Below are positions 8,061 to 32,215 of a stretch of DNA of 45,797 bases, one piece after another (within the stretch, counting starts at the first letter, position 1; the number at the start of each line of letters is the position of its first letter). The notes under the pieces are model-generated. The model saw only the letters and a list, made by a program, of their open reading frames with translations. It ran no database searches and was not told the DNA's origin. The DNA comes from a virus, in the IMG/VR virus record IMGVR_UViG_3300040770_000236, positions 1 through 45,797 of that record; one strand, 5' to 3'. The translations under genes were made by a program, and so were the position numbers.

Positions 8061-10127
8061 ATGGCAAATAAAAATTTAACAGTATTCCAAAAATTAGGAC
8101 AAATATTAGGACCTGATGCTGGGACTAAAAGACAAATTCAACAAACACAAAAATACAATATTGGTAGTAGCGAATTATTAAAAACCGATAATAAGGCTGA
8201 GTTTGACACTGCAAAACTACAAGCACAACAAAGCAAATATCTAGGTCAAGTTTGGAAAAAAGTCGAAAATGGATTATTCCAACAGTCTATGAATTATGAG
8301 ACAACTCGAATTGGTTCTTACTCTGATTTTGAAGCTATGGAGTTTTACCCTACGATAGCCGCAGCATTAGATGTTATGATGGAAGAATCAACAACACTTA
8401 ATTCACATGGTAAAATGCTTAACATATATTCTGATAGTAAACGTGTTAAAACAATATTAGAAGATTTATTTTTCAATAGGTTAGACTTACATACATCATT
8501 ACCAATGTTTACAAGAAACACTTGTAAATATGGTGATAATTTTGTCTATTTAAATATTGATGAAACACATGGTGTTTTAGGTGGTAAACAAATGCCAAAC
8601 TATGAAATGGAAAGACGAGAGACTGGTCTTTTTGATATGATATCTGGTAGAGAAATGGTTAACAGTAATGATGAAGAAACTTCTGGTGATAAAGTAAAAT
8701 TCTTTTGGAGAGGTCGTGATATCGAATTTAACTCATGGATGATTGCACATTTTAGATTATTAGGTGACGATAGAAGATTACCATATGGTACCAGTGTATT
8801 AGAAAAAGCTAGACGTATATGGAAACAATTAATTTTATCTGAAGATTCAATGTTAGTTTATCGTGTAACTAGAGCACCAGAAAGACGTGTATATAAAATA
8901 TTTGTCGGTAATATTGATGATGCTGATGTTGAAGCTTATGTAAATACAATCGCTGATAGATTTAAGCGTATGCCGATTACTGACCCACAAACTGGTCAAA
9001 TCGATTTAAGATATAACATGATGTCAAATGACCAAGATTTTTTCATCCCAGTTAGAACTGAAGATGCACCTAACCCTATTGATGTATTGCCTGGTGCTAG
9101 TAATTTAGACCAAATTGCAGATATAGAATACTTACAAAGAAACTTATTTACAGCTCTTAGAGTACCAAAACCATTTTTAGGATTTGATGATGCTGTAGGT
9201 GATGGTAAGAACCTTGCAATACAAGATATTCGTTTTTCTAGAACAATTAATAGAATACAACAATCAATGATTCAAGAACTTAATAAAATTGCTATTATAC
9301 ATCTTTATATTTTAGGGTTTGAAGATGATTTAGATAATTTTACACTTACATTAAATAACCCTTCAACCCAAGCTGAAATGCTTAAAGTAGAACACACTCA
9401 ATTAAAAGTTACATTATTTAAAGACGCTACTAGTGATTTAGGTAATGGTTTTGCAACAATGTCTATGACACGTGGACATAGAGAAATTATGGGTTGGTCT
9501 GACGATGAAATTAAACAAGATTTGCTTGAGCAAAGAATGGAAAAAGCTGCTGGTAATGAATTAGCTAATACCAGTAGTGTGATTAAACATACTGGTATGT
9601 TTGATAATGTAGATAGATTATATGGTGATTTTGATATGGCCCTTAAAGGTGGTTCTGCCAGTGAAGATGGCGGTGAAGATGGCGGTGCACTTGGTGGTGG
9701 TGGTGGCGCTTCATTCGGTGGCGGTGGTATCGGTGGTGAAGATTTAGATTTTAGCGATGAAGAACCAACTGAAGGTGAAGAAGCATCATTAGAAGGTGGT
9801 GAGATACCAGCTGAAGGTGGTGAAGCACCAGATGAAACCCCAATTGATAATAGTGAAGTACCAGCTGAACCAGCATCTGTTTCAGAATATGTTAATAAAA
9901 CTGAAAAATTATTAAAAGAACAAAAACATATTTTAACTAAGAAATTAGAAGATAGAAAAAATAAATATAGAAACATCTATTTTGATAAGCTACTTGAATC
10001 TATTAAGCCTAGTGATGTAATTACTGAAAATAAAAACGATAAAGTTAAATTTTACGATAAGACGATTACCGTAAATGAAGAAATAAATAATATGATAAAG
10101 GGTATTGATAAAATATTAGACGAATAA
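8061..10127 (+). CDS. gp20: Portal vertex protein (T4 gp20-like)
   Basis: The portal forms the dodecameric ring through which DNA enters and leaves the head, and it nucleates prohead assembly. Residues from about 60 to 500 carry portal features: YETTRIGSYSDFEAMEFYP, a wing/stem region with FWRGRDIEFNSWMIAHFRLL, PYGTSVLEKARRIWKQL, and RAPERRVYKIFVGNID. At 688 residues it is clearly longer than T4 gp20 (524). The extra C-terminus has a Gly/Glu-rich low-complexity linker (about residues 530-615) and then a charged coiled-coil (EYVNKTEKLLKEQKHILTKK). It follows terL closely and precedes core and protease genes, matching T4 gene order. The start at 8061 leaves full-length N-terminal similarity. 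Confidence 0.93.
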   Translation: MANKNLTVFQKLGQILGPDAGTKRQIQQTQKYNIGSSELLKTDNKAEFDTAKLQAQQSKYLGQVWKKVENGLFQQSMNYETTRIGSYSDFEAMEFYPTIAAALDVMMEESTTLNSHGKMLNIYSDSKRVKTILEDLFFNRLDLHTSLPMFTRNTCKYGDNFVYLNIDETHGVLGGKQMPNYEMERRETGLFDMISGREMVNSNDEETSGDKVKFFWRGRDIEFNSWMIAHFRLLGDDRRLPYGTSVLEKARRIWKQLILSEDSMLVYRVTRAPERRVYKIFVGNIDDADVEAYVNTIADRFKRMPITDPQTGQIDLRYNMMSNDQDFFIPVRTEDAPNPIDVLPGASNLDQIADIEYLQRNLFTALRVPKPFLGFDDAVGDGKNLAIQDIRFSRTINRIQQSMIQELNKIAIIHLYILGFEDDLDNFTLTLNNPSTQAEMLKVEHTQLKVTLFKDATSDLGNGFATMSMTRGHREIMGWSDDEIKQDLLEQRMEKAAGNELANTSSVIKHTGMFDNVDRLYGDFDMALKGGSASEDGGEDGGALGGGGGASFGGGGIGGEDLDFSDEEPTEGEEASLEGGEIPAEGGEAPDETPIDNSEVPAEPASVSEYVNKTEKLLKEQKHILTKKLEDRKNKYRNIYFDKLLESIKPSDVITENKNDKVKFYDKTITVNEEINNMIKGIDKILDE

Positions 10128-12108: not shown

Positions 12109-12828
12109 ATGGATATAAATTATAAAGACTTTAAAGTATTAAAACGTGGACAATCAGGTTGGGGTGGATTAATTGAACATGACGCTGGTTATATTAGTCC
12201 AGATGAACCAAGAAACCAACCATTCATAAATGAAATAAAAAAATTAGAAAGTGGTAAACTAGTAATAATAGAACCACTTGTTGTTTATGTTGTATTACAA
12301 AAATACGGAATACTTAACCGTAATGGTAGAATTTACCCTGAAAGTGTACTTAGAAAACAAAATGATTTATACCAACAAGCAATTAGAGAACGTAGAGCTG
12401 TAGGTGAATTAGACCACCCAGAATCTTCAGTTATAGCTGGTGATAGAATATCTCACAATATTACCGAAACATGGTGGGAAAACCATACACTTATGGGTAA
12501 AATGGAAATTCTTATGAGTCCTGGATATATTAATTTTGGTATTATATCATGTAAAGGTGATAATGTTGCCGATTTATTAAGACATAGAATTAAAATTGGT
12601 GTTTCTTCTAGAGGTGTTGGTTCTTTAAAAGAGGCTAGGAATGGTGACCAAATAGTTCAAGATGATTTTGAAATTATTTGTTGGGATGTCGTTACAGCCC
12701 CATCAACACCAGATGCTTGGATATTTAGAACACATGAAGAAAGTAGACCATATGTTGAGAACATTGAAAAAAAACCAATATTAATAGAAACATTAATAGA
12801 TAAATTAGATAAATTCCTATTAGATTAA
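12109..12828 (+). CDS. gp21: Prohead core protease (T4 gp21-like)
   Basis: This serine protease matures the prohead by cutting scaffold, capsid and internal proteins, usually after L/I-x-E. The 239-residue product shows the expected landmarks: ILNRNGRIYPESVL (about residues 68-81), the catalytic-His segment GELDHPES (His103) and the catalytic-Ser segment IGVSSRGVGS (Ser166 or Ser167). A C-terminal DVVTAPSTPDAW block, typical of these herpesvirus-fold phage proteases, follows. It is slightly longer than T4 gp21 (212 residues). Scaffold and capsid genes follow directly, as in T4. Predicted target sites are visible in the capsid protein (LSE at residue 60) and several other products in this window. 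Confidence 0.95.
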   Translation: MDINYKDFKVLKRGQSGWGGLIEHDAGYISPDEPRNQPFINEIKKLESGKLVIIEPLVVYVVLQKYGILNRNGRIYPESVLRKQNDLYQQAIRERRAVGELDHPESSVIAGDRISHNITETWWENHTLMGKMEILMSPGYINFGIISCKGDNVADLLRHRIKIGVSSRGVGSLKEARNGDQIVQDDFEIICWDVVTAPSTPDAWIFRTHEESRPYVENIEKKPILIETLIDKLDKFLLD

Positions 12829-12936: not shown

Positions 12937-14256
12937 ATGGCTGAAAAAAAATCAATACTTGAAGATGCGATGTTGGATATTAAAAAAATCCAAGAAGCTC
13001 TAAATGCCAACACAAAAGAAATACTTCGTAGCGTTGCTAAAGAAGAAATTGATAGTGTGGTAAAAGAATCTCTTATGGAAAAAGAGTATGAGGAAGAAGA
13101 TTTAGAAGGTGATGAAACAGGTTTAGAAGTTGGACCAGAAATTGGTGATGATGAAGAACTTGGTTTAGATGGACCATCTGATGATTTAGAAGACATTGAG
13201 AACTCTGAAGAAGTAGGACCAGAAATGGGCCTAGATACAGGAATGGACCCAGAAATGGGGATGGACTCAAGTGAGTTTGGTGGAGACGAAATGGATATGA
13301 CAGCATCATCTGATGATGACGTTATTGCAATTTACAAAAAATTAAGTGGAGAAGATGAAATTGAAATCGTGGGTGACCAGATTCATATGAATGTATCTGA
13401 ACCTGGAGAATACATTATTAATCTTAAAGATGGTGGTTCTGCTGGTGCTTCAGCTGACGAATTAGGTGGTGAACTTGGTGGTGAATTAGAACTTGATGGT
13501 TCTGAGGAATTTGATAGTGTATCAGATAGTGAATTTGGTGGTGAAGAAGATGCTGAGGATGATGGTGTTGATTATGAAATCGAAATGGGTGATGAAGAAG
13601 AAGGTGAAAGCGAAGAATCTGAAGAAGGTGAAAGCGAAGAATCTGAAGAAGAATCTGCTGAAGAAGAAGAAGAAGAATTGGAAGAAAACATAGGAAATGT
13701 AAACGGTCATGCTGGTGCTCAAGGTGCTAGAAGAAACGGTTCATCTCATTTAGGTTTTGGTAAATCTTCAATGGATGGTGAAAAAGTTAATGAGAATAAA
13801 AAATCAAAAGCTGTAATTTCAGAAATCACAAATAAATATAATAATTTATTAAGTGAGGCTAAAAAAATCCAAACAGAAGCGAAGAGTTTAAGAGTTGAAA
13901 ATAATGAGTTTAGAATTGCATTAAAAGAATTCAGAACAAAATTAGTTGAAACTGTAGTGTTTAATTCGAACCTTACATACGTTGTAAGAATCTTAGAAGA
14001 AAATTCTACAACACAAGCTGAGAAAAAAGAAATTATCAGAAGATTTGACGAAGAGGTTTCGAATTTAATCGAATCAAAAAATCTTTATAAATCTATTAGT
14101 AACGGATTGGCTTCTAGAAAACCAATTATCGAATCAGTAGAAAACAAAATTATTAAAGAGGGTGCTACTAGTAGTTCAAAACAGTTAAATCAAAATACTG
14201 CATATGTTGACCCATCAACCAAAAGAATCATCGATTTGATGAAAAGAGTTGGTTAA
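12937..14256 (+). CDS. gp22: Prohead core scaffold protein (T4 gp22-like)
   Basis: Placed between protease and major capsid genes, this 439-residue acidic, low-complexity protein fits the gp22 scaffold, which fills the prohead and is later degraded. Residues 1-45 are helical (EDAMLDIKKIQEALNANTKE). Residues 46-250 are Glu/Asp/Gly-rich, with a duplicated EGESEESE unit. The C-terminal 150 residues are a long helical domain (EITNKYNNLLSEAKKIQTEA, NNEFRIALKEFRTKLVETVV), ending VDPSTKRIIDLMKRVG as scaffold proteins of this group often do. Several L/I-x-E sites are compatible with cutting by the neighbouring protease. The acidic middle is larger than in T4 gp22. Confidence 0.85.
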   Translation: MAEKKSILEDAMLDIKKIQEALNANTKEILRSVAKEEIDSVVKESLMEKEYEEEDLEGDETGLEVGPEIGDDEELGLDGPSDDLEDIENSEEVGPEMGLDTGMDPEMGMDSSEFGGDEMDMTASSDDDVIAIYKKLSGEDEIEIVGDQIHMNVSEPGEYIINLKDGGSAGASADELGGELGGELELDGSEEFDSVSDSEFGGEEDAEDDGVDYEIEMGDEEEGESEESEEGESEESEEESAEEEEEELEENIGNVNGHAGAQGARRNGSSHLGFGKSSMDGEKVNENKKSKAVISEITNKYNNLLSEAKKIQTEAKSLRVENNEFRIALKEFRTKLVETVVFNSNLTYVVRILEENSTTQAEKKEIIRRFDEEVSNLIESKNLYKSISNGLASRKPIIESVENKIIKEGATSSSKQLNQNTAYVDPSTKRIIDLMKRVG

Positions 14257-14298: not shown

Positions 14299-16143
14299 AT
14301 GTCACATTTATTAACAAGTGGAATGGTTGGAAATATTGGTATGAACCATATGAAAGCTATTCGTTTAGAAACCCAATCAAAATGGGATTCATTAGGTTTC
14401 TTGGAAGGTCTTAAAGGACACGTAAAAGAAAATATCGCTCAATTATATGAAAACCAAGCGTCAACATTATTAAGCGAATCTACAACTGCTAACAATTCAG
14501 GTTCTTTCGAAACTGTTGTTTTCCCAATTGTACGTAGAGTATTCTCTAAATTATTAGCTAACGATATCGTATCTGTACAAGCTATGAACATGCCAATTGG
14601 TAAATTGTTCTTCTTCGTTCCACAAACTTCATCACGTGTTGATGCATTGGGTGTAATGGGTAACAACTATGCTGCTAATGGTGGAGATGGTGCTTATGGT
14701 ACTACATATTCTGCACACACAGGATTAAATGGTTTACACAATGGTGTACCAACTGCTGCTGCATTGCCAGTTGCTTCAACTAAAGCTAATCAGCCTATTA
14801 CTCAAATGCAAGCTAAAAACTTGTACGATGCGTTCTACAATGATGGTTTATTTGATAACTCTAAAGGTACAATGACTATTATGGCTGACCCAGCTCCAAC
14901 TAAATGGGCTTTAGGGAATGATGGTCAATATACTCAAATAACTAATGGTACTACAGTATTAGCTACTGCAACTGATGGTTCTGTTAGACAAATTATCTTA
15001 GGTGTTTCTGGTTTTTCTGCTGGTCTTACAACTAATGGTAGAGAAGTTATGACAGGTGCTGATGGTAACCAAATGGATACTGAATCATTCTTAGCTTCAC
15101 TTCACGTATTGACTACTAATGATATTAAAGATAGAGATGGTAATACTATTGTTGCTGCTGGTAAAGAAGTTCCTTTCAGACTTGTTACTCAACAATATGG
15201 TAAAGGTATCGTATCTGGTTCTAAATCATTAACTGATGCTACAGGTGTTTGTTACTTAGGATTAGATATTACTCACCCTGTTGGAAATGCTGGTGTTGCG
15301 TCTTATGATGGTTATATTGGAGCTTCTGCTACAACTGCATCTGCATTCACTTTCACAGCTGCTTGGGCTAACTATGCAACATTAGAACTTGAAACTGAAA
15401 TGGGAGAAGTATCTTTCAAATTAGATGAGGTTGTTGTATCTGTTGAAGAAAGAAAATTACGTGCTACTTGGTCTCCAGAGCTTGCTCAAGACGTTAGTGC
15501 ATTCCATAACATCGATGCTGAAGCTGAATTAACTGCAATGTTATCAGAACAAGTTGCTGCTGAAATTGACCGTGAAATCCTTAGAGATATCCGTAAAGCT
15601 GCTGCATGGCAATTGAGATGGGATTATAATGGATGGAGAAAAGCTGCAACTTCAGCTAACCCATACACGCAAAAAGAATGGAACCAAACTTTAATTACTA
15701 AAGTTAACCAAACTTCAGCACAAATCCACAAATCTACTCTTAGAGGTGGTGCTAACTTTATCGTAGTTTCTTCTGAAATCTCTGCTATCTTTGATGATTT
15801 AGAATACTTCCACGTAAGTGATGCTAACCCAGAACAAGATAGTTATAACATGGGTATTGAAAGAATCGGTTCATTGAGTGGACGTTACCAAGTGTACCGT
15901 GACCCTTATGCTCCAGCTTACTCTATCATCGTTGGACACAAAGGAAAATCATTGTTAGACACTGGGTATATCTATGCTCCATACGTGCCATTGCAATTGA
16001 CTCCAACAATGTACAACCCATTTAACTTTGCGCCAGTTAAAGGAATTATGACAAGATACGCTAAAAAAGTTGTTAACAATAGATTCTACGGTCACGTAAG
16101 AGTTGATGGTGTTGTAACTTTCGATATGAACGAATTAAGATAA
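14299..16143 (+). CDS. gp23: Major capsid protein precursor (T4 gp23-like)
   Basis: The 614-residue product is a HK97-fold capsid protein of the gp23 type. The N-terminal segment carries KWDSLGFLEGLKGHVKENIA and then TLLSE, a predicted gp21 cut site after Glu60 before Ser61, comparable to the T4 cut near residue 65. Downstream are FPIVRRVFSKLLANDIVSVQ and PIGKLFFF; later come LSEQVAAEIDREILRDIRKA and the C-terminal RFYGHVRVDGVVTFDMNELR, all characteristic of gp23. Codons here include more C-ending forms than in neighbouring genes, as expected for a highly expressed protein. It is the last gene of the head set, followed by a terminator. Confidence 0.96.
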   Translation: MSHLLTSGMVGNIGMNHMKAIRLETQSKWDSLGFLEGLKGHVKENIAQLYENQASTLLSESTTANNSGSFETVVFPIVRRVFSKLLANDIVSVQAMNMPIGKLFFFVPQTSSRVDALGVMGNNYAANGGDGAYGTTYSAHTGLNGLHNGVPTAAALPVASTKANQPITQMQAKNLYDAFYNDGLFDNSKGTMTIMADPAPTKWALGNDGQYTQITNGTTVLATATDGSVRQIILGVSGFSAGLTTNGREVMTGADGNQMDTESFLASLHVLTTNDIKDRDGNTIVAAGKEVPFRLVTQQYGKGIVSGSKSLTDATGVCYLGLDITHPVGNAGVASYDGYIGASATTASAFTFTAAWANYATLELETEMGEVSFKLDEVVVSVEERKLRATWSPELAQDVSAFHNIDAEAELTAMLSEQVAAEIDREILRDIRKAAAWQLRWDYNGWRKAATSANPYTQKEWNQTLITKVNQTSAQIHKSTLRGGANFIVVSSEISAIFDDLEYFHVSDANPEQDSYNMGIERIGSLSGRYQVYRDPYAPAYSIIVGHKGKSLLDTGYIYAPYVPLQLTPTMYNPFNFAPVKGIMTRYAKKVVNNRFYGHVRVDGVVTFDMNELR

Positions 16144-16231: not shown

Positions 16232-16879
16232 ATGAAAAAAATAACTTTACTACTATTAATGTTAGCTTTTACTAATATTTACTCACAACTTAAAATAAAG
16301 ACTTCTAACGGACTAAAAATTAATCATGGTGACATAACATTATATTTAAGTAACGATACCTTATCATTAGTCTCTGTGCATGTGATAACATATGATAACC
16401 TTAATAAACTTACCCATGTTAGAGATGATAATTGGTATTCTGATACCTACAATACTTATGATAGAAAATACTATCGTTTTAGTGGTTATGATTTAGGTCA
16501 TTTAACACCATCAGATATTACATCTTATGACAAGGTAACTAACCATAATTCGTTTAGCCTATATAATCAAGCACCACAATTAGCTGGGTTTAATAGAGGT
16601 AAATGGGCAAGGTTAGAAAATAGCGTTTATGACACTATTAGAAAATATAAAAAAGATGCTGTAGTAATTACTGGTGTAATATATGATAATAATAATATTA
16701 AATACTTACCTAAATCTAGAATTAAAATACCAGTATCATATTACAAAATATTAACAATAAACAAAATAATTTATTGTTGGATAGGCTCTAATATAAACGG
16801 TGAAATAATAATTACAGATTTATTAACCCTAAATAAAATATTTAAGGTTAATAAACTTAATTTAAATATTAATCTTTAA
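16232..16879 (+). CDS. Secreted DNA/RNA non-specific endonuclease (His-Me finger, NUC family)
   Basis: The first 18 residues (MKKITLLLLMLAFTNIYS) form a signal peptide, with the cut before Gln19 as is common in Bacteroidota. The mature protein shows SGYDLGHLTPSD (residues 84-95), matching the DRGH active-site motif with Leu in place of Arg and His90 as the general base. The metal-site block NQAPQLAGFNRGKWARLEN follows (Asn112, Asn121, Glu129). At 215 residues it is a minimal family member. It would cut nucleic acid in the periplasm or outside the cell, since export should keep it away from phage DNA in the cytoplasm. It sits alone between the capsid terminator and a convergent gene, with a late-type motif upstream. 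Confidence 0.85.
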   Translation: MKKITLLLLMLAFTNIYSQLKIKTSNGLKINHGDITLYLSNDTLSLVSVHVITYDNLNKLTHVRDDNWYSDTYNTYDRKYYRFSGYDLGHLTPSDITSYDKVTNHNSFSLYNQAPQLAGFNRGKWARLENSVYDTIRKYKKDAVVITGVIYDNNNIKYLPKSRIKIPVSYYKILTINKIIYCWIGSNINGEIIITDLLTLNKIFKVNKLNLNINL

Positions 16880-18242: not shown

Positions 18243-18902
18243 TTAAACATTTCTGTATTTTCGACTAAAATAATTATTAGCTAATTTTACTGCGTCTTTT
18301 AATAAATAACCAGCGTTTTCATATTTTAAACCTCTATTTATTAAAGTACTAAATTGTGCGTTTGGTTGCATAGTATAAATTGTATTGAATAACGATAATA
18401 TTTTTTTATCTTCTTCGTTTAAACTTGAATAATAATCTATAAATTCTTCTTCATTATTAAAAGTTAAATCTATTTTATTTAAAATAGAAACACTATAATT
18501 TTTATTTATAGTTTTATCTGAATTAATTGGTTCGATAGTTTCTTTTTTAACATCATCTCTAGAATAGAATTTAGACCAAACATTTAACGCAGTCTTTCTT
18601 ATATCACCTTCTCTATTTGGCATTAAACCCTTACCCTTAATATTTAGTAACATCATCATTAATTCATAAATATATGGTCCAAAACCTTTTTCAGCAGCAA
18701 CACCACCAACACCATAATATTTACCATAATCTTCAGCATCTAACATACCGTAAACAACATTACTCGATGGGTCTATTAAAATTATCTGGGTATAGTTACC
18801 TGGGTTTACAAATAATGCAACTTCTTGTGGTAGATGTTCTAAGGATAACATTTCTTCATCAAGTAAAGATTCCCTAAGTAGCACTTTAATTAATTTTTTC
18901 AT
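18243..18902 (-). CDS. Putative internal head protein with acetyltransferase-like (GNAT-type) region
   Basis: The frame opens further upstream, but the internal ATG at 18902 gives MKKLIKVLLRESLL, which closely matches the start of the neighbouring gene (MKKLIKKLLREEIS), so I choose it. L9-R10-E11 followed by Ser fits the gp21-type protease rule, and an 11-residue basic-hydrophobic leader ending in L-x-E resembles the T4 capsid-targeting sequence. The centre (AAEKGFGPYIYELMMMLL, GLMPNREGDIRKTALNVWSK) resembles phage GNAT-like proteins with a G-GP-LYD and PDR pattern, but no acetyl-CoA loop is clear. It overlaps the upstream gene by 17 bases and probably shares its late transcript. Confidence 0.7.
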   Translation of the reverse strand: MKKLIKVLLRESLLDEEMLSLEHLPQEVALFVNPGNYTQIILIDPSSNVVYGMLDAEDYGKYYGVGGVAAEKGFGPYIYELMMMLLNIKGKGLMPNREGDIRKTALNVWSKFYSRDDVKKETIEPINSDKTINKNYSVSILNKIDLTFNNEEEFIDYYSSLNEEDKKILSLFNTIYTMQPNAQFSTLINRGLKYENAGYLLKDAVKLANNYFSRKYRNV

Positions 18903-19410
18903 TTTGTTTAATTTGTTTGAATAGACATCTATGAAATTCATCATAACCAAGTTTATTAGTTATTTTAGTTATAGGGTTTGCCTTTATCTCTAAGTTTACG
19001 TTTAAAGTTTTATTTAATGTTTTAGCTGCAAAATACCTATGATGACCATCTTCTAAATAGAATTTTAATCCATACCCATTAGATTCATACGATATATCAA
19101 TTGGTTCGCTTAAATTTATTTTCTCACTCCATTTTTTTGGAGTTAAACCGCTTTTTTTAACTTCCCAGATAACATTTTCTAAATCATCACGCCATTTTAT
19201 TGCAATTTTAGATGGATGTAACTCAGTTATATCTTTTTCTGAAAACCCAAATGCGTATCTATCAAGAATAATAGTAGGTAAACCACCACTTCTTAATAAC
19301 TGTTCGTCTGAGTCAAAATTTTTAATATAATTAATAACTTCGTCAGTTGGGAATAACTGAACACATTTAGAAATTTCTTCTCTTAGTAGTTTTTTTATTA
19401 ATTTTTTCAT
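18886..19410 (-). CDS. Putative internal head protein with ParB/sulfiredoxin-like DGHHR motif
   Basis: The 174-residue protein starts MKKLIKKLLREEIS, nearly the same leader as the next gene, with L9-R10-E11 as a possible gp21-type cleavage site. Near residues 123-135 it has FYLEDGHHRYFAAKTLN, the hallmark of ParB/Srx-fold domains, which bind or cleave nucleotides or DNA. The segment around IILDRYAFGFSEKDI may be part of the same fold. One base separates it from the upstream structural gene, so it is probably made late with virion proteins. A packaged and ejected effector, as T4 Alt is, is an inference from the leader and context. Confidence 0.75.
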   Translation of the reverse strand: MKKLIKKLLREEISKCVQLFPTDEVINYIKNFDSDEQLLRSGGLPTIILDRYAFGFSEKDITELHPSKIAIKWRDDLENVIWEVKKSGLTPKKWSEKINLSEPIDISYESNGYGLKFYLEDGHHRYFAAKTLNKTLNVNLEIKANPITKITNKLGYDEFHRCLFKQIKQNEKIN

Positions 19411-19411
19411 A

Positions 19412-20797
19412 TTACTGAGACTTACGTAAATCCACTTGATTAATAATATCGAATTGTACTACTTTTTTAAGTGTTGTAACTTCTAAGTTAGAAGTTGCTA
19501 ATATGTCTAAATAATAAGTATTAGGTATTAAACTATCAGTATCTAATAAGAAATAATAGTGGTTATTTGTCATTTCAATTGGCTCCATATCAATTACAGT
19601 TAATTCTGCAGAACCCTCAGAAACATATAACCTATATTTTAAACCACTAATTATTTGTGTCTGCTCTACAGTATACGGTATTCTAGCAGATACTATTACT
19701 TTACGAATATCACCACGTTTAATCTTTTCTTTATTATGTAAACCACCAACTGATATAGCTACCTTCTTAGGTAATAAGTCAGCACTACCTAGAGAGTAAT
19801 ACTCTATAGAGTCTTTTAGTACGAAATCAAGCGTTATATTAGGTCTATTAACACCGTTTATTATAATACCAGACCATTCATCTGTCCAAATGGTATTTAC
19901 CATACCAGATAGGCTGCTAACTAAGACATCTACCGAATATACGCCTTTGGTTATATGATTAACTTGTGGTGTTAATAAAGAATCACCATTAATAATAACA
20001 GTGGGTAATGCATCTAAGTTTGTTGGATTACCACCAACATTAACATATAGGTATAATTTATTTAATTTATCTAATATAAAGTTATTTCTATCATCAATAA
20101 TATGATTATCATATTTTGTTTCAATATATGGTTCATAAAATGTTTGAGTGTTATTAGTAAAAAACCCAACATATTTAAGACATGGTGTATTCAGTAACTC
20201 ATAACCTCTATTAAAGGCTATGCCTAAACCATAATTAGTATTACCAGTTAGTACACTATTAACGTATTCAGTAATGTCCATTTCGATATTCTCGTTTCCT
20301 TTGTCAAAATGTTGTGTTGCTATTGTTATACTTGATGGGTCCCCAGAATATACACCGCTACCGTTAAGCCAAGCTTGTCCAGTACCAGATTCAACCCAAT
20401 TTGATGGGCTATTAGAGTAAGCACAATCAGCGTTATTACTATCACAAATACTATAATCATATCCAACACCATTATCCCAATTTTGATTTATTTTAAACGT
20501 TATAAGGTCAAATGAAGAAGTTCTATTTTTACCAACCATAGTACCATTTAATAGATTATCAAATGAACCAGTGTTTGTTAATCTAAGTGTATGCGTAAGT
20601 TTAGATAAGTCAGTATATGTGCCACCAGTATATAAACCCATAAGTCTAGATTCATCAAAATTGAATAAAAATCTACTATATTGTTCAACACCATTATAAC
20701 CACCATAATATATTTCACTTACTGGGTTTAAACCTGTATTTACTGTTTGGTTTTTAACTATTGTATTATTCTTATTGAAGTATGTTCTGATTACCAT
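19412..20797 (-). CDS. Putative virion structural protein, 461 aa
   Basis: The protein is beta-rich. Residues 1-225 resemble a DNRLRE-type surface domain: an N-terminal YSRFLFNFDESRL, a WDNGVGYDY segment, and IEMDITEYVNSVLTGNTNYG. The second half contains repeating immunoglobulin-like strands (KVAISVGGLHNKEKIKRGDI, KYRLYVSEGSAELTVIDMEP). No enzymatic motif is seen. An exact copy of the 15-mer late motif lies 7 bases upstream of its start, and baseplate-type genes lie next to it on the same strand. A tail, neck or baseplate appendage is likely; the precise part is not known. Confidence 0.7.
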   Translation of the reverse strand: MVIRTYFNKNNTIVKNQTVNTGLNPVSEIYYGGYNGVEQYSRFLFNFDESRLMGLYTGGTYTDLSKLTHTLRLTNTGSFDNLLNGTMVGKNRTSSFDLITFKINQNWDNGVGYDYSICDSNNADCAYSNSPSNWVESGTGQAWLNGSGVYSGDPSSITIATQHFDKGNENIEMDITEYVNSVLTGNTNYGLGIAFNRGYELLNTPCLKYVGFFTNNTQTFYEPYIETKYDNHIIDDRNNFILDKLNKLYLYVNVGGNPTNLDALPTVIINGDSLLTPQVNHITKGVYSVDVLVSSLSGMVNTIWTDEWSGIIINGVNRPNITLDFVLKDSIEYYSLGSADLLPKKVAISVGGLHNKEKIKRGDIRKVIVSARIPYTVEQTQIISGLKYRLYVSEGSAELTVIDMEPIEMTNNHYYFLLDTDSLIPNTYYLDILATSNLEVTTLKKVVQFDIINQVDLRKSQ

Positions 20798-20803
20798 TTT
20801 TTA

Positions 20804-20818
20804 TTTTATTATAAATAT
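20804..20818 (-). promoter_or_regulatory. Candidate late promoter, 15-mer motif copy 2
   Basis: On the minus strand this reads ATATTTATAATAAAA, identical to the copies at 410, 43206 and 43235, and it lies just before the ATG of the 461-residue structural gene (start 20797). Promoter function is inferred. Confidence 0.55.
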
Positions 20819-30677: not shown

Positions 30678-31415
30678 CTAATTAATTTTAGAAAAGTAAA
30701 TTCTTTCCATTATTTTTTCTACATCAACATACGTTTTACTATTACCAGTATCTGGATTAATGTCTGGAACTGTATCGATTATTATAATACCTCTAGCCGC
30801 ATCTTCTGGTGTCATATACATATGGTAACCAAGCATTTGGACATGGTTTTCATCGGTATATGGGAGATTTAAGTCTCTACCATCGTAAGATGCCATTTTA
30901 AGCCATTTATACGCCTCAAAATCATCAGTTAATATAATACCACCCTTTCCAATCGGTATCCTTTTTTTTATTTGAAATGAAACTACTTGTAAAGCGTCAA
31001 GACCAACATACATATCTTTGGTCCATCTAACAGCACCATCCCAAACTCTAGAACCTTTTAATTGATAGACACCTGACCATTCTAAGTCTTCAAAGGTTAC
31101 TTTATTACCAGCGTTTATAATTTGCATAGGTGCTGACACATAAGTCATTTTAGGTATTTCAAGTTCAACACTTGTATTTAATTCGCCAATATGTTGCAAA
31201 TATTTTAAAGATAAAAATAAACCATGTGAACAACAATCGATACTTACAGCATATTTACTACCAGCAAATTTAGCGACTTTTTCTTCAAACATATTTATAA
31301 CATCTCTTGGGTCTGACCAATTATACCCTAATTCTTTTAATCTATCTAATTCTGGTCGTTGTAACTCTTTAGGTACTTGTCCTAGTGGCCAACTTGTGTA
31401 TTTTACTTCTTTCAT
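30678..31415 (-). CDS. DegT/DnrJ-type PLP aminotransferase, short form
   Basis: The protein resembles sugar aminotransferases of the DegT/DnrJ/EryC1/StrS class: FEEKVAKFAGSKYAVSIDCC (PLP phosphate-site region), VELEIPKMTYVSAPMQIINA, and VVSFQIKKRIPIGKGGIILT, where one Lys would bind PLP. At 245 residues it is much shorter than usual (about 360-400), lacking the C-terminal domain, so it may be a compact phage form or inactive alone. Next to gmd, it could aminate the 4-keto sugar towards GDP-perosamine. Its start overlaps the stop of the GT10 gene as ATGA. Confidence 0.8.
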   Translation of the reverse strand: MKEVKYTSWPLGQVPKELQRPELDRLKELGYNWSDPRDVINMFEEKVAKFAGSKYAVSIDCCSHGLFLSLKYLQHIGELNTSVELEIPKMTYVSAPMQIINAGNKVTFEDLEWSGVYQLKGSRVWDGAVRWTKDMYVGLDALQVVSFQIKKRIPIGKGGIILTDDFEAYKWLKMASYDGRDLNLPYTDENHVQMLGYHMYMTPEDAARGIIIIDTVPDINPDTGNSKTYVDVEKIMERIYFSKIN

Positions 31416-32215
31416 TTTATATAATTTTCAAATATGTAATCTTCAGCAACTGGCATATTGATAACCCTGTTGTAATTATCATTTATTGCGTCAATTTTAT
31501 TATAATATAATTCAGGTGTTAAGTCATTGATATTAAAATTTTCATTCAACATTATAATACCATCCATATTAAAAACATCACCAATCATATCAGTACCATA
31601 ATAAATTGGTATGGTCCCTGTGGCAAAACAATCGCTTATTTTTTCACTATACGCTAGTGGGTATGTATGATTTTCCATAGTTATTGAAAAATGGTAATCT
31701 TTAAGCCCTATTTCTTTATTCTTAATTTCATTGTAACCACGACCAAAAAGGTCAATTTTATCACGATATTTATCTATAATTGTTTGTCTATATAAGTGTT
31801 CTTGACACATAATTTTATTTGATGCAATCATAGATATTAATTTACTCTTAGTGTGAACACCAATATCTGTAACCCAAGGTTTTGCACTACAAGTAACTAA
31901 CTTAAATTTAGGTGATAATTTTAATAATTCAGTATCGTGAGTAAATAGTAACCTATAGTTATCCTCTAAATATTTTACATTAAATACACACCATTGGTAT
32001 AATGATAAGTTTATAGTTTTTGATTCAGATAACCAAGCATAATTTATCTTTGATTTATCTGGAATAATTTCCATAACTCCATAATCAATATGTATAGATA
32101 TATCAGCAGAATTAGAGCCTTTAATCCACTCAATTTCTTTTGGGATACTTCCAGATGATGAACATACATCATGTTGAAATCCACCACCTACCATATTTAT
32201 TTTTACTTTACTCAT
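31412..32215 (-). CDS. GT10 family fucosyltransferase
   Basis: The C-terminal half has the GT10 (alpha-1,3/4-fucosyltransferase) signature: DLFGRGYNEIKNKEIGLKDY, FSITMENHTYPLAYSEKIS and DCFATGTIPIYYGTDMIGDV, including the ENxxxxxYxxEK pattern that binds GDP-fucose. The N-terminal part is a divergent acceptor domain (VGGGFQHDVCSSSGS). The 267-residue length fits bacterial GT10 enzymes. It would transfer L-fucose (or a related 6-deoxy sugar) from a GDP donor. ATGA overlaps at both ends tie it to the aminotransferase and acetyltransferase genes. Confidence 0.85.
   Translation of the reverse strand: MSKVKINMVGGGFQHDVCSSSGSIPKEIEWIKGSNSADISIHIDYGVMEIIPDKSKINYAWLSESKTINLSLYQWCVFNVKYLEDNYRLLFTHDTELLKLSPKFKLVTCSAKPWVTDIGVHTKSKLISMIASNKIMCQEHLYRQTIIDKYRDKIDLFGRGYNEIKNKEIGLKDYHFSITMENHTYPLAYSEKISDCFATGTIPIYYGTDMIGDVFNMDGIIMLNENFNINDLTPELYYNKIDAINDNYNRVINMPVAEDYIFENYIK

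Follow-up and report, generated by a model that had tools for sequence, protein, structure and literature searches.

A capsid targeting sequence (CTS) on the internal proteins of phage T4 has reportedly been described by Mullaney and Black. The internal proteins IPI, IPII, IPIII and Alt carry this sequence (PMC3012670, PMC5694885), and Silas et al. report that Ip1-3 have nothing but the leader in common (PMC12373910). T4 served as a positive control: the products of ipII and ipIII have the common N-terminus MKTYQEFIAE|A, and ipI has ITE|A. In the giant phages SPN3US and phiKZ the prohead protease trims N-terminal propeptides of head-internal proteins that are ejected; the SPN3US propeptides are mostly over 100 residues, and no single short tag on unrelated bodies is reported there (PMC5694885). 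For polyvalent injected proteins, and for virion-packaged ART and NUDIX proteins, packaging was inferred from MuF/portal fusions and from gene neighbourhood (PMC5512222, PMC9503650).

The stretch of viral DNA analysed here (the window, a 45.8-kb IMG/VR fragment of 45,797 nucleotides) encodes two adjacent proteins that open with an 11-residue leader, MKKLIKxLLRE, which is very probably a capsid-targeting sequence working like that of T4. As in T4, a short N-terminal leader ending at (L/I)xE sits on otherwise unrelated proteins, the phage encodes a gp21-type protease, a gp23-type capsid protein and a scaffold, and the cargo includes an ART-like domain (T4 Alt being an ADP-ribosyltransferase). 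The leader differs from that of T4 in sequence (MKxLIKKLLRE rather than MKTYQEFIAE), and sequence comparison finds no homology between the two; the logic is the same. Scale and content also differ: there are dozens of body clusters where T4 has a handful, up to about 16 scattered tagged genes per genome with several leader classes in one phage, and RNA-repair and metabolic enzymes among the cargo. N-terminal trimming by a prohead protease, predicted here from sequence, is a likeness to the ejection proteins of SPN3US and phiKZ; the polyvalent injected proteins share overlapping domains (ART-PolyVal, GNAT, NUDIX) and a predicted delivery with the DNA, but the proteins described here are small and bear a short, cleavable-looking tag. 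The principle is already known from T4, and the same pattern is found on a small scale in Silas et al. (PMC12373910); what appears to be new lies in the leader families as such, in how widely they occur among large Bacteroidota phages, in the coexistence of several classes per genome and in the range of cargo. Targeted searches of the open-access literature found no description of these leaders.

The two leader genes

Protein A (19410–18886, minus strand; 174 aa from ATG) begins MKKLIKKLLREEISK, further on reads ...FYLEDGHHRY, and has the N-terminus MKKLIKKLLREE as read from its ORF. Protein B (18902–18243, minus strand; 219 aa from ATG) begins MKKLIKVLLRESLLDE, with the N-terminus MKKLIKVLLRES. 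The leader of A, MKKLIKKLLRE (19378–19410, minus strand), is conserved in relatives G001, G002 and G004; the leader of B is MKKLIKVLLRE (18870–18902, minus strand). Both are predicted to be cut after E11, and protein B has a possible second predicted cut site, ..LLDE, at residue 16. The two leaders are identical at 10 of 11 residues and 27 of 33 bases. The mechanical ORF list opens B at an upstream TTG (18950), which leaves the leader methionine internal to the longest ORF; the ATG at 18902 is likely the real start, because the recurring conserved leader marks it. The original prediction of a near-identical 11-residue start on two otherwise different proteins is borne out: both ORFs are real, and their bodies are unrelated, one sulfiredoxin/ParB-like and the other with a weak GNAT-like fold. 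An apparent loss of the leader of B in the near-identical G002 was set aside, as that record is broken by frameshift-like errors, including right at the leader.

The genes are tightly packed. A 461-aa gene (19412–20797, minus strand) lies directly upstream of A, 1 base apart, and is probably in one transcript with it; B overlaps the end of A.

Recurrence and conservation of the leader

In related viruses the tag heads dozens of otherwise unrelated proteins. Searched as a degenerate DNA pattern, the leader gives 58 matches in 15 related viral records, and the reversed control gives 0. A position weight matrix (PWM) built from 39 leaders and run over 1.09 Mb of phage sequence picks out 53 gene starts among 1,436, and not one of the 3,329 internal methionines; its seeds were drawn from the scanned set itself, the informative figure being the internal zero. 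At least 119 stretches of a viral collection carry the leader pattern; among the matches listed nearly all are gene starts, opening genes of about 80–700 aa. Cellular genomes, 257 Gb in all, hold 32 stretches that fit the pattern; none is clearly of the MKKLIKxLLRE type, and most are short ORFs or encode membrane proteins that lack the LLRE core; on these scans the leader is viral rather than cellular.

The original prediction would have been refuted had the leader failed to recur on unrelated bodies among relatives; it recurs amply, on 162 distinct leader proteins in 53 body clusters. Profile searches that apparently united the bodies were found to join them through the leader alone, and the bodies were therefore clustered after removal of the first 16 residues. 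Clusters were joined at a blastp E of 1e-3, and some share domains, so that the number of unrelated folds is below 53 and still large; gene calls are simple longest-ATG ORFs, and the records are metagenomic and in part nearly identical (G006, G007 and G009; G008 and G012), so that protein counts are not counts of independent events. A leader of 10–20 residues common to otherwise unrelated proteins of one phage, as expected of a CTS, is thus present, and G009 holds 16 such genes by PWM.

The leader often reaches about 16 residues, with the consensus MKxLIKKLLRExLLxE. Conservation is near complete at I5 (162/162), E11 (161/162), L9 (158/162) and R10 (157/162), and 134 genes between them spell LLRE with 36 different encodings; selection therefore acts on the peptide, not on the DNA. 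The same count bears on the view that the shared N-termini are a functionless product of recent duplication or gene conversion of a gene start. The two window leaders, adjacent and 27/33 identical in bases, are what such an event would leave, but the 36 encodings, and the scattering of the genes along genomes and across divergent phages, make this explanation barely credible; on the codon evidence, duplication without function was rejected.

The head module and the predicted cut site

The phage behind the window is probably large, as the 193-kb record G002 carries nearly the same sequence (its capsid piece is 99.7% identical). The plus strand of the window holds a T4-type head module. Its upstream part includes a gp20-type portal protein (8061–10127), homologous to an immuto gene annotated as gp20-like; a gp21-type prohead (head maturation) protease follows at 12109–12828 (PHROG 207, E 5.9e-37). 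Between the protease and capsid genes, in the gp22 position, lies a putative acidic prohead scaffold/core protein (12937–14256), assigned from composition, position and conservation. The T4 gp23-type major capsid protein (14299–16143) was recognised by tblastn to annotated gp23-type capsid proteins, and is 74–80% identical to those of most other leader phages. The protease, gp23-type capsid protein and scaffold that accompany a CTS in T4 are therefore all encoded here.

The gp23 propeptide of T4 is cut at residue 65. Near this position, around residues 57–60, the capsid proteins of LLRE phages read LL[STN]E|[SAT] (one MLTE); in the window the predicted maturation site is LLSE|S (residues 57–60; 14467–14478, plus strand), kept as LL[STN]E in relatives. 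The leader ends as LLRE|[NGSAQ], and the residue after the predicted cut (P1') is N, G, S, A or Q in 81% of leaders against a background of 28%. The original prediction had noted that the leader's L-R-E fits the L/I-x-E rule of the protease at 12109; it also matches the capsid maturation site of the same phages, so that by sequence match the leader ends at the gp21 consensus (L/I)xE as the capsid propeptide does. More generally, the motif (LIV)(LI)xE(small) is about 2–4 times commoner in residues 1–30 than in the next 30 in 5 of 6 phages, and as an N-terminal motif it is commoner than xD, xK or reversed controls.

Of 23 LLRE records, 17 encode a gp21-type protease, as does each leader record tested in which the head module is present. 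Eleven leader records without the protease were considered as possible exceptions; none of them has an intact capsid gene or a real portal match, so that they are probably fragments, not counter-examples.

The leader could instead be an uncleaved docking or localisation helix, directed to a membrane, replication compartment, tail or host factor, and not a head-packaging signal. It is a short, basic, amphipathic helix in AF2 models, at low confidence (residues 2–10 or 2–15; in the model of protein B leader residues 1–13 have pLDDT below 50), and R10 is near-invariant though the LxE rule requires no such residue. However, cleavage is indicated by the P1' bias and by the agreement with the capsid site, (L/I)xE is common to several leader classes that otherwise differ in sequence, and the protease and T4-type head genes accompany the leader wherever a head module is present; an uncleaved helix is considered improbable. 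Under the capsid-targeting model, R10 may serve docking.

Bodies of the tagged proteins

The body of A (18886–19377, minus strand), the predicted cargo, is a DGHHR domain modelled at a mean AF2 pLDDT of 88. Its best Foldseek match is sulfiredoxin 6ky4 (E 9.4e-4), with Noc, KorB and the serine kinase SerK among lower matches; TM-scores are modest, and the PHROG match to ParB-like proteins is weak (E 0.0026). The model nonetheless shows the Srx/ParB fold with a DGHHR-type motif that defines the ParB/sulfiredoxin superfamily, as had been proposed from the motif. Close homologues of protein A were sought in cultured phages and none was found. The body of B (18243–18869, minus strand; mean pLDDT 81) is modelled as a divergent GNAT-like domain with a helical C-terminus. 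B had been proposed to be acetyltransferase-like: nearly all top structural matches are GNAT acetyltransferases, but these are weak (best E 4.9e-3) and there is no Pfam match. Against Pfam and PHROG together, the window bodies give weak matches only.

The DGHHR body is found with the LLRE leader alone in the window and in G001, with the LLRE leader and an ART-like domain in G004, and with a different leader, MKIILFESQ, in G005; G003 has a DGHHR homologue and a close capsid protein, without the LLRE leader or any clear leader, a case that speaks against the capsid-targeting model. With the leader of one body varying in this way across phages, tag and body are, as read from these genes, separable modules.

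Pfam matches among 53 representative tagged proteins comprise ART-PolyVal (6), GNAT models (about 3) and NUDIX (2), with a CCA-adding enzyme, a pterin-4a-carbinolamine dehydratase, a phage lysozyme, a protein kinase, a PNK-like AAA with tRNA-ligase CPD and further domains once each; many of the bodies are unknowns. Homology to solved enzymes begins at residue 19 of the pterin dehydratase, and at about residue 33 of the CCA-adding enzyme, so that by alignment the leader stands ahead of an enzyme that is complete without it. Of 14 ART-PolyVal matches found by direct search of these records, 9 open with the leader or a variant, several of the records having been chosen for the leader.

These contents bear on a further alternative, that the tagged proteins are parts of the prohead core or scaffold, needed for assembly and then degraded or expelled, and not delivered effectors. 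Gp21 also cuts T4 core proteins (PMC5694885), and a 112-aa tagged protein kept in many of these phages could resemble T4 gp67/gp68. Most bodies, however, are patchy in distribution and often enzymatic (ART, NUDIX, GNAT, CCA-adding enzyme, pterin dehydratase), unlike scaffold, and the core-component explanation is held to be very improbable; the predicted functions of the bodies fit injected effectors. The repertoire resembles a large stock of enzymes, mostly of unassigned function, for early action against host defences and for takeover of the host. A leader-tagged CCA-adding enzyme and a PNK/CPD-type RNA-repair enzyme are seen in G009 at 203675 (L030:3675-4847) and 213762 (L030:13762-14700); it is speculated from them that some of the cargo serves to mend RNA that host defences damage as the phage enters.

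Further leader classes in related phages

A de novo search for shared N-termini finds further leader classes, each with (L/I)xE. G009 has NIKKANLLSEQRYL and MKTKLIITESQ; the 295-kb record G041 has MKIIITESQ on about 10 genes, and also MKKIIRLTESDL..RVIxE, MKDLIRKILRE, MNLQENI.RIKEMMGL and [IS]EEEKNRIL.MH..LNE (also written ITEEEKNRIL.MH..LNE). The MKKIIRLTESDL (LTESDL) class is found in at least 120 viral stretches on many unrelated bodies, and accompanies a gp21-type protease (15 of 20 LTESDL records). In its longer form, MKKIIRLTESDL..RIVKRVIxE, this leader is very common in large phages, where it heads many small genes of unrelated content, in places several in tandem, as in L284:4359-5932 (five consecutive genes) and in G041 at about 126–193 kb.

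The capsid site is LINE|A in each of 10 phages with the LTESDL..VIxE leader, where LLRE phages show LL[STN]E. Leader and capsid site appear to differ together, though not strictly and with few independent events; an exception is G034, in which the LLRE leader occurs with LINE-type and LVTE-type capsid proteins. This record (268,739 bases) holds two gp21-type proteases (31246–31806 and 233503–233997) and two different capsid proteins, of LINE type and immuto type, and would be either a chimeric assembly or a phage with two head modules.

The nearest cultured Bacteroidota relative, Flavobacterium phage immuto, has the MENFDLKKFLVE class, and the LLRE leader is not present in it. The N-termini MENFDLKKFLVEN and MKKSQLRxIIKE are common to unrelated immuto genes, the MENFDLKKFLVEN class reading LVE; genes with shared N-termini lie in NC_055915 at 1803–2318, 118632–118931, 103806 and 117631, and at 102294, 102880 and 113188. 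A search of the open-access literature for published immuto virion proteomics found none; being cultured and having shared N-termini, immuto would be a convenient phage for such work.

It is about an even bet that large T4-like Bacteroidota phages use multi-address packaging, in which several parallel leaders of one phage, unrelated in sequence and each with the protease site, preload dozens of small effectors, RNA-repair enzymes among them, that act before phage genes are expressed; different leaders may dock to different core proteins.

Expression and host

A late-promoter-like box, ATATTTAT (20811–20818, minus strand), lies upstream of the run formed by the gene at 19412, A and B, and a similar box stands ahead of the protease and scaffold genes. 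Counted in relatives, boxes of the ATATTTAT type lie at most 45 bases upstream of 17 of 46 leader genes and 130 of 836 others (p = 7e-4), the identity of the box as a late promoter being putative. The Bacteroidota-type promoter TAnnTTTG is depleted ahead of leader genes (3 of 46, against 162 of 836 others; p = 0.03). The leader-tagged CCA-adding and PNK/CPD genes of G009 have host-type TAnnTTTG promoters directly upstream, and for this reason some tagged proteins may also be made early. The late transcript suggested in the original prediction thus agrees with the enrichment of the late-like box, but not with these two genes. Its assignment to a Bacteroidota phage has fared well: TAnnTTTG occurs upstream of 17.8% of G009 genes and in about 3% of random windows, an enrichment that supports a Bacteroidota host.

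A model for packaging and delivery

The tag probably serves as an address by which proteins are directed into the virus head and so carried to the next bacterium, since it is found on dozens of unrelated proteins and always ends at the cut expected of the head-trimming enzyme. Recurrence of the leader, its match to the capsid site, a protease encoded with the head module and effector-like bodies together give strong support, at the level of sequence, to the T4-like capsid-targeting model put forward at the outset. By analogy with T4, the leader would act as an amphipathic helix of 11–16 residues that docks otherwise unrelated late proteins on the prohead core; the gp21-type protease is predicted to remove it after E11, at an (L)LxE|small site like that of the capsid protein, and the trimmed cargo would remain in the DNA-filled head and enter the host with the genome. 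The cargo of the window would be the ParB/sulfiredoxin-fold DGHHR protein and the GNAT-like protein; across relatives the modular tag would load a large and changing set of effector-like enzymes, and the further leader classes of the same phages, different in sequence, would keep to the same protease rule.

A short, recognisable tag would allow phage-delivered proteins to be listed from sequence, including those of uncultured metagenomic phages, and could be used to load chosen proteins into the heads of Bacteroidota phages, much as has been done in T4 with its own leader.

Other genes near the head module

Adjoining the capsid gene, the window encodes a secreted-looking DNA/RNA nuclease (16232–16879, plus strand; PHROG 14168, E 7.8e-17) with an N-terminal signal-like sequence. 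In several related phages a small, separate ORF holds a 40–65 residue piece of the major capsid protein, corresponding to window capsid residues about 377–432 or 436–502 (G009 226370–226822; G016:16086-16223; G018:88751-88924; G021:121574-121741; G022:118104-118301); these ORFs are possibly relics, or decoys for capsid-sensing defences.
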